Positions 29,328 to 53,035 of a stretch of DNA of 64,000 nucleotides are shown here, in pieces (within the stretch, counting starts at the first letter, position 1; each line of letters starts with the position of its first letter). Position numbers and translations under genes: made by a program. The DNA is from an uncultured Synergistales bacterium (lineage in GTDB: Bacteria; Synergistota; Synergistia; Synergistales; Aminobacteriaceae): positions 124,001-188,000 of the forward strand of contig CAJOMU010000005.1 in NCBI GenBank assembly GCA_905235735.1. The letters are read 5' to 3'. The notes beneath the pieces are model-generated. The model did not search any database, was not told the DNA's origin, and saw only the letters and a list, made by a program, of their open reading frames with translations.

Positions 29328-30319
29328 TGTTGACACTTGGAATAGAAACGAGCTGTGATGATACGGGAGTATCAATCATTCGAGATGAACGCGAAGTATT
29401 ATGTGAATTGCTGTCCAGCCAGATAAAAGATCATTCGCGATTCGGAGGAGTGATACCTGAATTCGCCGCACGTAAACATCTTGAGAATTTGCTTCCGTTA
29501 GTTGATGCCGCACTGAATGAATGCAGTATCAGAGGCCAAGACCTAAACTTGATTGCAGTAACGCGCGGGCCAGGACTTATGGGTTCATTGATTGTGGGAG
29601 TGATGACAGCACGAGCATTATCGCAGTCATGGAATGTTCCGTTAATCGGAGTGAATCATCTTGAAGGTCATTTATTCGCACCTCTCGTTGATGCTGAAGA
29701 CTTAGAGCCTCCTTTCTTGTCGCTGATAGTTTCGGGAGGACACACAGAGATAATCTGCGTACATGAATTCGGGAAGTATGAGCTTCTTGGTGAAACGAGA
29801 GATGATGCCGCAGGTGAAGCATACGATAAGGCCGCGAGAATTTTAGGACTGAAATATCCCGGAGGCCCGGAGATTGATAAACTTGCGAAGACAGGAGACC
29901 CTTACGCATTCGATTTCCCGATTCCATTGAGGAATACACATGAAGTTGAATTCAGTTTCAGCGGATTGAAGACGGCATTATTATGGCAGGTGAAGAAGTT
30001 CGAGAATGACTGCGTGAACATACCAATGAATGATTTGTGCGCATCATTTCAGCGTGCAGTAACGGAGGCGTTGATGTCGAAGGTGAATCTTGCTGTGCGT
30101 CTCACTGGCATAAAGAGAGTTTCAGCATCAGGAGGAGTATCAGCGAATAGTGCATTGCGTGAGGCGTTGAGTTCAGCAAAAGGTTTCCGTGCGTGGCTTC
30201 CGAAATTGAATCGCTGTACGGATAATGCGGTTATGATTGCTATGGCGGGTCATAATGCATGGAAGAGAGGAAAGGTTTGCGGTGATGTTATGCCGAATCC
30301 ATCACTGCATGATTTATAA
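29324..30319 (+). CDS. tsaD: tRNA N6-adenosine threonylcarbamoyltransferase
   Basis: A 331-residue protein of the Kae1/TsaD family. LGIETSCDDTGVSI at the start is the ASKHA nucleotide-binding loop, and His112 and His116 in NHLEGH bind the metal. It also shows SLIVSGGHTE, GEAYDKAARILGL and SASGGVSAN. With TsaB and TsaE it adds the threonylcarbamoyl group to A37 of ANN-decoding tRNAs. The start is GTG 29324 or the next codon ATG 29327; ggagg lies at 29306-29310. The start overlaps the stop of the small gene before it. Confidence 0.95.
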   Translation: MMLTLGIETSCDDTGVSIIRDEREVLCELLSSQIKDHSRFGGVIPEFAARKHLENLLPLVDAALNECSIRGQDLNLIAVTRGPGLMGSLIVGVMTARALSQSWNVPLIGVNHLEGHLFAPLVDAEDLEPPFLSLIVSGGHTEIICVHEFGKYELLGETRDDAAGEAYDKAARILGLKYPGGPEIDKLAKTGDPYAFDFPIPLRNTHEVEFSFSGLKTALLWQVKKFENDCVNIPMNDLCASFQRAVTEALMSKVNLAVRLTGIKRVSASGGVSANSALREALSSAKGFRAWLPKLNRCTDNAVMIAMAGHNAWKRGKVCGDVMPNPSLHDL

Positions 30320-30347
30320 TGAATTCATAAAAATGGAGGTTGACAAA

Positions 30348-31184
30348 ATGAAAAGTTCATGCATAATTGAACAGAACAGAACAGAACAGAACAGAACAGA
30401 ACAGAACAGAACAGAACAGAACAGCTTACGTGCGCTCTTACGCAGGAGTAGTTTACTTCACAAGTGTGTTCATTCTATTCGTGTAATCCGAAATTACTTC
30501 CGATACAGCAAATTCTGGAAGCCGTACAATGAGATGTTTGCATCTAAGGTGTGTCTTGAGATAGGTGGCCCTTCAGCACTGTTTTCACCGATTTACCTCA
30601 AGTGCAAATTTTGTGATGGTGTGAATTTCAGCGCAAATACAGTTTGGTGGAAAAAAGGAAGTTCTGAGAAGTATACGTACAGCTTTTTGACGCTTGGAGA
30701 TTTATACATAGCTGATGCTGTGAAAATAGATTGCCTTCATGATGCTTCATATGATTTTGTCATGTCATCGAATAACCTTGAACACATAGCCAACCCCATC
30801 AAAGCACTCAAGGAAATGACAAGAGTACTCAAATCCGGCGGAAGTATTGTGATACTCGTCCCAGATAAACAATACACGTTTGACCACAGACGAGAATACA
30901 CCAGTTTTGAACACATGCTCGAAGACTACGAGAATGATACGCCTGAAACAGACCTTACGCACCTTCCAGAAATTCTTGAACTTCATGATTTGTCTATGGA
31001 TCTTCCGGCTGGAGATATTGAAAATTTTCGTAAACGTTCTGAACTCAACTACGAGAACAGATGCCTTCATCAACATGTATTTTCTGAGGACAGCCTGAAG
31101 AGGATATTTGAGTATTTAGGTATTGAGGTTATTAATTGCTGTAAGTGTTTCCAGAATTACATGATAGCAGGCAAAAAAGTATAA
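30348..31184 (+). CDS. SAM-dependent methyltransferase with an in-frame pentanucleotide repeat (probably phase-variable)
   Basis: A 278-residue protein. After MKSSCIIEQ, residues 10-28 are made of NRTEQ units encoded by eleven AACAG repeats. The following class I methyltransferase domain has VCLEIGGPS (SAM-binding motif I), DLYIADAVKID, SNNLEHIANPIKALKEM and LKSGGSIVILVPD. ATG 30348 has ggagg at 30335-30339; the repeats begin 22 bases into the gene and the frame is open (ON) in this copy. Gaining or losing one 5-base unit would shift the frame. The next gene is a membrane acyltransferase, so the substrate is probably a surface glycan. The methyl acceptor is unknown. Confidence 0.8.
   Translation: MKSSCIIEQNRTEQNRTEQNRTEQNSLRALLRRSSLLHKCVHSIRVIRNYFRYSKFWKPYNEMFASKVCLEIGGPSALFSPIYLKCKFCDGVNFSANTVWWKKGSSEKYTYSFLTLGDLYIADAVKIDCLHDASYDFVMSSNNLEHIANPIKALKEMTRVLKSGGSIVILVPDKQYTFDHRREYTSFEHMLEDYENDTPETDLTHLPEILELHDLSMDLPAGDIENFRKRSELNYENRCLHQHVFSEDSLKRIFEYLGIEVINCCKCFQNYMIAGKKV
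30370..30424 (+). repeat. Simple sequence repeat (AACAG)x11 inside the methyltransferase gene
   Basis: Eleven perfect tandem copies of AACAG (55 bases). As 5 is not a multiple of 3, each slippage event changes the reading frame, except changes of three units, which add or remove NRTEQ. Its position near the start codon is typical of phase-variable contingency genes. Confidence 0.95.
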
Positions 31185-31226: not shown

Positions 31227-32243
31227 ATGTTCGGCCATGAAAGAATAAGCTATCTCGATTCTCTGAAAGTATTATCTGCATTCTGCGTCGTATTCATTCA
31301 TTCAGCTTCTGGTGTATGGCATGAATCCGATGTGTATTCCTTCGAGTATTTCATAATCAACATATACGAAGGTCTAATCAGATGGTGCGTACCTGTATTC
31401 GCTATGATAAGCGGCGCAATTTTCCTCAGAAAGGACATAACGATACGAGAACTCTTCAGCAAATATATTCTCAGAATCTTTACGGCATTCATATTCTGGT
31501 CAGTGTTCTATGCATTGATTCATTATCACGTCAATGAAGATTTCAACATGGCCGTTACTCTCCTCATTATCGGCTATTTTCATATGTGGTATCTCCCAAT
31601 GACAATGACACTGTATGCAGTAACTCCATTCATGAAATTAATCTCGCAGTCAGAATCACTCGCGAAATATTTTCTCGTTCTCTCATGCATTGCGTTTCTT
31701 GCATTCCCTCAGACAATCAATACAACACTGCTATTCTCTGGCCTTTATGGTGATATATTGTCTCAGTTATCCGGCAAATTTTACTTCAGTCTTGCAGGAG
31801 GCTTCACAGGATATTTTCTTCTTGGTTATGTGCTGAGTGTGATTGAAATTGATTCTAGACTTGAGAAACTGATATATATTCTGGGGATTGCAGGCTTCAT
31901 TATGACGGTCGTATTCTCTCATATTGCATCAGTCATGATGAACGAACCAGACCAGAGATTTTATGACGCAATGAACATTCATATTATGCTTGAGAGCGTT
32001 GCAGTCTTCGTGTATTTCAGGAAGCATAATCTCAGCAGTGAATTTCTGAGCAGAATATCGCGTTACAGTTTGGGAGCATATCTCGTACATGCTGAAGTTC
32101 TACGATGGGCACGCATGATGAATCTCTTTTCATTCTGTCCGTTAATCTCCATTCCAGTTGTATCACTTGCTGTACTGGTCATCTCGTATGCATTATCGGC
32201 ACTGCTGAATCACATTCCATTCATCAACAGGTATATCGTGTAA
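31227..32243 (+). CDS. Acyltransferase family 3 membrane protein
   Basis: A 338-residue protein with about ten membrane helices. RISYLDSLKVLSAFCVVFIHSASG near the start is the acyltransferase-3 signature with the conserved His (FIHS). Members acetylate or succinylate sugars of cell-surface polysaccharides, peptidoglycan or lipids. ATG follows aaggag at 31214-31219. It lies 42 bases after the repeat-containing methyltransferase, and the two interrupt an otherwise housekeeping gene run (tsaD, radA), suggesting a later insertion for surface modification. Substrate unknown. Confidence 0.85.
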   Translation: MFGHERISYLDSLKVLSAFCVVFIHSASGVWHESDVYSFEYFIINIYEGLIRWCVPVFAMISGAIFLRKDITIRELFSKYILRIFTAFIFWSVFYALIHYHVNEDFNMAVTLLIIGYFHMWYLPMTMTLYAVTPFMKLISQSESLAKYFLVLSCIAFLAFPQTINTTLLFSGLYGDILSQLSGKFYFSLAGGFTGYFLLGYVLSVIEIDSRLEKLIYILGIAGFIMTVVFSHIASVMMNEPDQRFYDAMNIHIMLESVAVFVYFRKHNLSSEFLSRISRYSLGAYLVHAEVLRWARMMNLFSFCPLISIPVVSLAVLVISYALSALLNHIPFINRYIV

Positions 32244-51443: not shown

Positions 51444-51673
51444 ACGGAATAATACCTCCTTGAAAGATAAATATGATTCACATGAAAAACATTGAGTGAA
51501 ATAAATTTTACTGGATACGTGAATAAGATAGTATAAATTCTTTTTTTCGTCAACGAAGATATACTTACGTTCAATGGAAAATTATTAGAAAGTGAACATA
51601 GCCGTAAATGAATGAAGATGATGTGATAAAATTAGAAAAAAATTTTTGATTTCACATGAAAGGAGATTGACAA

Positions 51674-53035
51674 GTGAAGAATAGCAACGGTATAATCGAC
51701 CATCGACCAGCGACTTTTTGTCATAAAACACAAAATTCCCCAAAAATAGATTCACTTATATTTTGGGCGGTAATGGTTAATGTTTTAATTCCTAAAGCAG
51801 GTTTTAAAATTGGCGGTATTCCTATTACGCTTGGTAATATTCTCTTGTTTTTGTTGCTTATAAGAACATGTATAAAACCATTTAGGATTAAAATTAAAGA
51901 CAAAAATTTTATGTTTTTATTTCTATTATTTCCTTTGTATTGTTTTTTGCGAATTTTAATACCATCAATTGCAGGTACACTTGAAGTGTCAAGTGCGTTT
52001 TCACTCATGGCGGCTAGCTCTGTATACCCTTTAATCTTTCCTGTTATTATCACGAAAATAAGAGATGATAATCAATTAGAAACCCTGACTAAAGTTATAA
52101 CTGCCTGCCTTTTTATAACGATGATTTATGATATTCTTCAGGCCATCTTTGGTATAGCAGCTGTTCAAATTCCGGGCATAACAGTTAATTACAGTGATTA
52201 TGCGAATGCTCCAGGTCACTGGTGGTTGTTAAAATATAATGGTGGTTCTGATAATTCAAAAATTTTTTCAACATACCAAAATGGAAATTTATACGGTGTC
52301 AATATGCTTATGTTTTATCCGTTATTTAGTTTGTATTTTAGAAAAAACAAAGGTATTTTTATTTGTGCTCTTATGGTTGTGTTATTCAGTATTATTGTAT
52401 TTTTGACAGGTTCCAGAACGGTTTGGATAGGAGCACTTGTATATTCATGCCTTTTAGCATTCGAGAGTATCAGATACAGTAAAATTAAATTAAAAGGTTT
52501 GATGATTACAATAATTTTCTTATCTTTTTTTGCATTTTCCGTCGGTTATTTTATGTCACTGTTTTCGACACGAATGGGCAGGTTGTTTTACTCTCTCAAT
52601 TGGAGTGTGCTTTTAGCAGGGGGAGGCAGAACAGAGGGTGTTATACGCTCATTTCAATGGCTCTTTGACAATGGTAATATTTTGCATTTTTTGTTTGGTT
52701 CTTATGGCACAGGAGGTTATGCAGGAGCTTACGAAATGACATATTTTGCAATATTTTTCGGATATGGAATTATCGGACTGATACTATGGTTGTTGCCTAT
52801 TGTACTTGTGAGCTTGAGAATAAGACAAAAATGCATAAAATCAAAAGATATATTACTAGGGGGATTGTACAAAGGTATTTTTATCTACATGGCCTGTGCT
52901 TTTATTGATGGAGGATGGTGGCTGCCTCCAACTGTAATAAACTTATGGACACTGATAGCCTTAGCTTACAAGAAGATGCAATTCTTACCCTTAAAATGCA
53001 AATACCATGAACATCCTCTCCCGCAGTCAATGTAG
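51674..53035 (+). CDS. O-antigen ligase/polymerase (Wzy-like) membrane protein
   Basis: A 453-residue protein with about eleven membrane helices and a large loop. GSRTVWIGALVYSCLLAF and the GGGRTEGVIRSFQWLF region resemble the Wzy_C/RfaL (O-antigen ligase) domain. The gene is visibly AT-richer than its neighbours and uses AAA, TTT and ATA codons heavily, which suggests recent transfer. GTG 51674 follows aaaggaga at 51658-51665. It stands alone, with no glycosyltransferase genes nearby. Whether it polymerises or ligates glycan cannot be told. Confidence 0.7.
   Translation: MKNSNGIIDHRPATFCHKTQNSPKIDSLIFWAVMVNVLIPKAGFKIGGIPITLGNILLFLLLIRTCIKPFRIKIKDKNFMFLFLLFPLYCFLRILIPSIAGTLEVSSAFSLMAASSVYPLIFPVIITKIRDDNQLETLTKVITACLFITMIYDILQAIFGIAAVQIPGITVNYSDYANAPGHWWLLKYNGGSDNSKIFSTYQNGNLYGVNMLMFYPLFSLYFRKNKGIFICALMVVLFSIIVFLTGSRTVWIGALVYSCLLAFESIRYSKIKLKGLMITIIFLSFFAFSVGYFMSLFSTRMGRLFYSLNWSVLLAGGGRTEGVIRSFQWLFDNGNILHFLFGSYGTGGYAGAYEMTYFAIFFGYGIIGLILWLLPIVLVSLRIRQKCIKSKDILLGGLYKGIFIYMACAFIDGGWWLPPTVINLWTLIALAYKKMQFLPLKCKYHEHPLPQSM

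Follow-up and report, generated by a model that had tools for sequence, protein, structure and literature searches.

A stereotyped promoter-and-repeat cassette, proposed to act as a reading-frame switch, lies at the start of a methyltransferase gene and recurs across a Synergistales genus

The methyltransferase locus and its pentanucleotide array

The window analyzed here is a stretch of 64,000 nt from an uncultured Synergistales gut bacterium, and its forward strand carries at 30348..31184 an ORF of 278 aa for a class I SAM-dependent methyltransferase (ATG at 30348, stop codon at 31182-31184). Starting 22 nt into these 278 codons is a tandem array that TRF places at 30369..30424 on the same strand (period 5, 11.2 copies of GAACA, 100% match, score 112) and that includes eleven perfect AACAG units at 30370-30424. 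The sequence, the TRF output, and the ORF call all agree with the initial annotation, which had placed eleven AACAG units 22 nt into a methyltransferase coding region. TRF found no second array of this kind across the whole 64 kb window.

The locus passes a test for the array itself (a perfect tandem unit, not divisible by three, near the start of an ORF) as well as a test for frame closing, in which an extra unit ends the ORF early: the frame runs for 278 codons at the assembled unit number, for 47 with one added unit, and for 37 with two. With eleven units the methyltransferase frame is open (“ON”) in the assembled copy. The only other start codon that stays open into the array is TTG at 30367, which has no Shine-Dalgarno site and closes after 39 codons, so that the switch would be close to binary. 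It had been proposed that slippage flips this gene ON and OFF and that the present copy is ON; the three ORF lengths, the anatomy of the locus, and the comparison between species given below support this reading, with switching itself not observed.

Several signals are crowded into 30315-30367, all on the forward strand. A TATAAT at 30315..30320, recognized by its sequence and by family-wide enrichment, is a possible −10 element of an upstream promoter (P1); it overlaps the stop codon of tsaD and lacks a TGn extension in this copy, and the methyltransferase mRNA could alternatively arise by read-through from tsaD. A Shine-Dalgarno-like GGAGG (30335..30339) lies 8 nt before the ATG and is followed by a −35-like TTGACA (30340..30345) and a −10-like CATAAT (30362..30367) that ends 1 nt before the array. 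This pair, P2, matches the consensus at 11 of 12 positions and passes the sigma-70 motif criterion (TTGACA, 16-18 nt, TATAAT-like), and while there are no in vivo start data, by motif it looks like a sigma-70-like promoter. The methyltransferase ATG sits inside the P2 spacer.

The fold class of the encoded enzyme is clear from Pfam, in which class I families are matched (Methyltransf_11, E 2.7e-11). Across Pfam and NCBIfam the matches are of the Methyltransf_11/23/31 type, with a UbiE-like match far below the cut-off, and no DNA-methyltransferase family is matched in either, so that the criterion for a phasevarion failed. Matches to solved structures are weak and to generic methyltransferases, including one sugar O-methyltransferase (E 0.0065). 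Given a family of the Methyltransf_11/23 type and the lack of a DNA-methyltransferase match, the enzyme is predicted to be a small-molecule or glycan-type SAM enzyme, with DNA an unlikely substrate. The initial annotation had named surface polysaccharide or DNA as methylation targets to compare between ON and OFF variants; the first remains a candidate, and the second is unlikely.

The surface-type acyltransferase noted next to this gene is indeed there: an Acyl_transf_3 membrane acyltransferase (31227..32243, forward strand; Pfam E 6.7e-30) begins 42 nt past the methyltransferase stop codon. No terminator-like site was found between the two genes, and they are probably co-transcribed. A search of the methyltransferase locus against Rfam gave no match.

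A recurring element in the genome and genus

The AACAG array is not isolated and belongs to a cassette that recurs in this genome and across the genus. The element consists of a Shine-Dalgarno-like site, TTGACA, 16-18 nt, a −10-like hexamer, and, a few nt on, an array of 5- or 7-nt units, with the start codon usually within the 16-18 nt spacer. We surveyed 43 genomes of the genus with the pattern AAGG-N0-3-TTGACA-N16-18-ATAAT and obtained roughly 120 matches in 31 of them, compared to a handful for the reversed pattern. Among the 109 distinct elements that were read, 92 lead straight into a tandem repeat, the unit being 7 nt long in 51, 5 nt in 38, and rarely of another length. In the genus loci (368 kb), period 5 accounts for 64 arrays, period 7 for 47, and period 8 for one, with none of period 2-4, 6, or 9-12; in 97 of these 112 arrays, a TTGAC is followed after 15-19 nt by a −10-like hexamer whose end falls −2 to +5 nt from the array. 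About a hundred putative switches of this layout are present across the genus. All listed family members have A at position 2 and T at position 6 of the P2 −10 hexamer, which is partly imposed by the search rule; the same pattern is seen at most arrays in hexamers collected without that rule. Units of 4 and 8 nt, which would also shift the frame, are nearly missing, and the preference for 5 and 7 nt is unexplained. At three loci (L180, L184, L185) pyrimidine-rich units (GGTCT, CATCT, TGTCT) stand behind the promoter of the family, which shows that units can lie on either strand. Two narrower searches for the family were set aside: the leader GAGGTTGACAAAWTG as a signature gives 8 matches in 7 of 41 genomes, and A??AG arrays alone recover only one class of unit.

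As the genus loci were chosen by the pattern, the window's own genome (2.1 Mb) was also sampled without selection over 444 kb. All seven arrays of period 5 or 7 (at least 3 copies) in this sample sit in the element, which is far beyond chance and makes a chance origin of the AACAG array far-fetched, and 8 of 9 TTGACA-N16-18-YATAAT promoters bear arrays or remnants. This genome holds at least 16 elements, and perhaps about 40 by extrapolating the sampled density. It should be kept in mind that the elements are related copies, so that the counts are not independent and comparisons with shuffled sequence overstate independence.

Two of these elements lie in the window, at 30340 and 51667. The second (51660..51714, forward strand) reads AAAGGAGA TTGACA N18 TATAAT and is followed by a decayed 7-nt array, CGACCAT CGACCAG CGAC. 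A GTG within its P2 spacer opens a membrane-type ORF of 453 aa (51674..53035, forward strand) that has no Pfam match and is in frame as assembled, element and ORF both falling within 51642-53035; the ORF seems locked in frame, and to our impression it resembles an O-antigen ligase or polymerase. Decay is also seen at L226 (G000:C8:33762), which retains about 1.6 units and is followed by what looks like a glycogen branching enzyme gene. A near-identical element in a sister species (L321, G012:C49:14673) has 6.9 units and a different gene behind it, and with the flanks differing in this way the element itself may be mobile between loci.

Many arrays in draft genomes are 25-29 nt long, and several are at contig ends, which suggests assembly collapse and makes the copy numbers and ON/OFF states there untrustworthy; some genes called out of frame may be so only through misassembly. 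At six loci (L154, L158, L160, L162, L163, L166) the draft contig terminates within the array after 26-29 nt, pointing to k-mer collapse that masks the true unit number, and many such genes may be hidden in draft genomes in the same way.

Judged by Pfam families, the genes behind the element are mostly predicted glycan enzymes. The 80 downstream proteins include GT2, GT1/4, GT11, GT61, Acyl_transf_3, MBOAT, and SAM methyltransferases, and further pyruvyl transferases, sugar transferases, sulfatases, nitroreductases, and radical SAM proteins; in the window's own genome the targets are GT2, two sugar transferases, GT61, GT11, a sulfotransferase, and three further methyltransferases. That these targets modify surface glycans is an inference from families and neighbours and is undemonstrated. 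One locus, L174 (G024:C17), has a broken AAGAC array before what appears to be the housekeeping gene lepA, an odd target for a switch.

Translation of the array and alternative readings

The evidence from the sequences says that the array is translated. Among 97 elements, an open ATG lies upstream of the array in 85, compared to 29.7 expected from shuffled spacers, some open start codon is present in all 97, and a Shine-Dalgarno-like motif precedes TTGACA in 93. The P1 region is likewise enriched, with an exact TATAAT upstream in 46 of the 97 (5.8 expected) and a TGn-extended −10 in 53 (3.2 expected). None of the 34 distinct units contains a stop codon in any frame, compared to 3.3 expected, which is weak support for translation. 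The possibility that the ATG is an accident of the spacer and the array pure 5' UTR was rejected because fused genes (below) have no later start codons and open ATGs are over-represented. If P2 were the sole promoter, the mRNA would begin inside the array, without a start codon.

Two designs can be distinguished. In the fused design (51 loci), one frame continues across the array into a long ORF; for dozens of codons past the array, many of these genes offer no start codon. As assembled, 17 of the 51 are in frame, which is the one third expected from a random switch, and the out-of-frame genes retain long intact ORFs. In the second design (24 loci), a Shine-Dalgarno site and a start codon belonging to the gene itself follow the array, and one frame of the leader ORF ends −12 to +8 nt from the gene start in 21 of 24, often as an ATGA overlap, compared to 9.4 expected when the intervening DNA is shuffled. 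The stop/start adjacency criterion for translational coupling, which concerns this design and not the methyltransferase locus, is passed, and it suggests translational coupling, with the dependence on leader translation being inferred. Closed frames in both designs meet a stop codon at a median of 26 nt past the array. Unit number would then act through the reading frame at fused genes and through reinitiation at coupled ones.

Comparison between species adds to this picture. Orthologues of the methyltransferase in two genomes of the same genus (66% and 65% identity) carry other pentamers at the matching position, approximately 10 units of AGAAG and approximately 5 units of GACCA, and protein similarity extends up to the array. 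In the first 60 codons past the array, the differences between the window and G034 fall at codon positions one to three as 21, 14, and 36, the third being highest. The close relative G012 (uncultured Synergistales, Reindeer_1_mag_22; flank 94% identical) has at least 13.4 units compared to 11.2 in the window, its contig breaking inside the array after 13.4 units. The initial annotation had asked for the unit number in related genomes, and at one pair of orthologous loci of sister species (L153/L317) it does differ, at about 15.6 and 3 units. These comparisons are between species only, without reads or strains of one species.

With this in mind, we consider it highly probable that the array is a translated frame switch within a cassette that recurs across the genome and genus. 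An mRNA from P1 or from the preceding operon would include the ATG at 30348 together with the Shine-Dalgarno site, with ribosomes translating through the array into the methyltransferase. Slippage would alter the count of 5-nt units (7-nt in sister cassettes), each gain or loss shifting the frame, such that one unit number in three would give the full methyltransferase and the other two would stop soon past the array. Three parts of this account are inferred, namely frequent slippage in cells, a surface glycan as the substrate of the methyltransferase and perhaps also of the acyltransferase behind it, and a gain in cell-surface diversity through switching. This reading is strengthened because orthologues bear different pentamer arrays in the matching position, because intact genes sit out of frame behind the element elsewhere in the genus, and because unit numbers differ at orthologous loci of sister species. 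Frame switching is thus well supported by anatomy, and the switching itself is inferred rather than observed.

It is also important to consider an action of the array on transcription, in which P2 works and the unit number tunes promoter output or mRNA stability. Promoter-like pairs ending within a few nt of most arrays, the loci with their own start codon past the array, and the presence of the motif before tRNA genes in sister genera, which points to a working kind of promoter in the order, would all be expected if this were so. However, many fused genes have no start codon near the array end, and the next in-frame start of the methyltransferase is 109 nt on and within the conserved region; a P2 transcript could therefore not yield the full methyltransferase. 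Since open ATGs before the array are also strongly over-represented and the −35/−10 spacing is unaffected by unit number, we regard a transcriptional role of the array as quite improbable.

If, instead, the unit number does not vary in the species and the gene merely yields a protein with a repetitive N-terminal tail, the one assembly of this species examined would be in frame, as it is. This is very hard to reconcile with sister-species loci that differ in unit number, with the break of the G012 contig inside the methyltransferase array, and with orthologues that carry other units. Least credible to us is that the arrays are neutral or selfish, i.e., chance repeats at a dispersed promoter-like element with the genes behind them being lost: the copies are dispersed and alike, and some arrays have nearly decayed (51667 in the window, L226), yet no unit length is divisible by three, the targets are chiefly glycan enzymes, the out-of-frame genes keep long intact ORFs, and leader ORFs reach gene starts above the shuffle expectation.

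The place of P2 and comparison with known repeat switches

Frame switching, the account we prefer, leaves the role of P2 unexplained, as P2 is strongly conserved though its transcript would miss the start codon. P2 is kept at nearly lost arrays (51667 in the window, L226), and it is misspaced or absent at some live arrays (L188, L182). Possible roles are raising slippage, interfering with P1, or providing a frame-independent transcript for coupled loci. Sister genera have the same promoter motif, often ahead of tRNA genes, and arrays are absent at all 13 copies read there. AAGG-TTGACA-ATAAT as a general promoter of the order was considered and rejected, as it is rarer in the sister genera and the copies read lack arrays.

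Contingency genes with simple sequence repeats in their coding region are well known from Haemophilus lic (CAAT), Neisseria opa (CTCTT), and the Campylobacter phasome. They share with the cassette short units that are not a multiple of three near the coding 5' end, surface-modifying targets, and many loci per genome, whereas the cassette has one stereotyped element (Shine-Dalgarno site, −35, start codon, −10) before its arrays, units of 5 or 7 nt in many sequences, and a coupled leader-ORF design in addition. Promoter-located repeat switches are also familiar, as in H. influenzae hmw1A and in meningococcal nadA, the latter described in PMC2791445. There too a tandem array is close to promoter elements, but unit number alters promoter spacing or output, whereas in the cassette the array comes after the −10 and translation through it is the better-supported reading. 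The concept of a phasome has been set out previously (PMC6321876), and as far as that citing account conveys it, a CACAG repeat in the type III mod gene of Pasteurella haemolytica (Ryan and Lo 1999, cited in PMC6321876) is likewise a pentanucleotide array proposed to switch a methyltransferase gene; mod is a restriction-modification DNA methyltransferase, in contrast to the predicted small-molecule or glycan-type enzyme of the window. Termination-reinitiation coupling via ATGA or TGATG overlaps (PMC6728339) resembles the second design, where the leader stop overlaps or adjoins the gene start in most loci, and differs in that the array's unit number would decide whether a ribosome reaches the leader stop.

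Within Synergistota, the initial annotation had held such phase variation to be little described, and we likewise found no account of repeat-based phase variation in the open-access literature; a putative inversion has been noted in one of two Synergistetes species (PMC5903667). The larger result is that a stereotyped phase-variation cassette runs through the genus, with fusion and coupling as its two outputs and a promoter beside the array that is puzzling. An apparently uncultivated Synergistales genus gains a large and uniform phase-variation repertoire (at least 16 loci in a 2.1-Mb genome), and with one element common to all of the switches, a simple pattern search is enough to list them in any genome of the genus. 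The leader-ORF coupling and a promoter that would start inside the array lead on to the questions of how repeat switches are put together and at what rate they operate.

Promoter-like pairs are also found next to (AACAG)n arrays in other phyla, where 12 of 68 arrays have a pair ending −1 to 6 nt before the array, compared to 0.25 expected from simple shuffles and 0-2 at other distances. Two of the 12 (L065, L074) lie in what we take to be hsdS coding sequence, and their pairs may be coincidental. In nine genomes of other phyla the consensus promoters that were read have no arrays, with the exception of L345. It is conceivable, and on balance we doubt it, that the cassette is a purpose-built contingency switch whose consensus promoter, by firing into the array, makes it hypermutable, with a rate set by transcription; if true, the promoter-beside-array layout at some (AACAG)n arrays of Lachnospiraceae, Oscillospiraceae, Treponema, and Streptococcaceae would be a wider unrecognized design. 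A TTGACA-TATAAT-like pair directly precedes (AACAG)n in other phyla at L053, L084, L096, L111, L098, L105, L088, and L072. In Brachyspira pilosicoli PC5538III-hc (L050 and L070, on one contig), several (AACAG)n arrays occur within a few kb, with short open frames after them.
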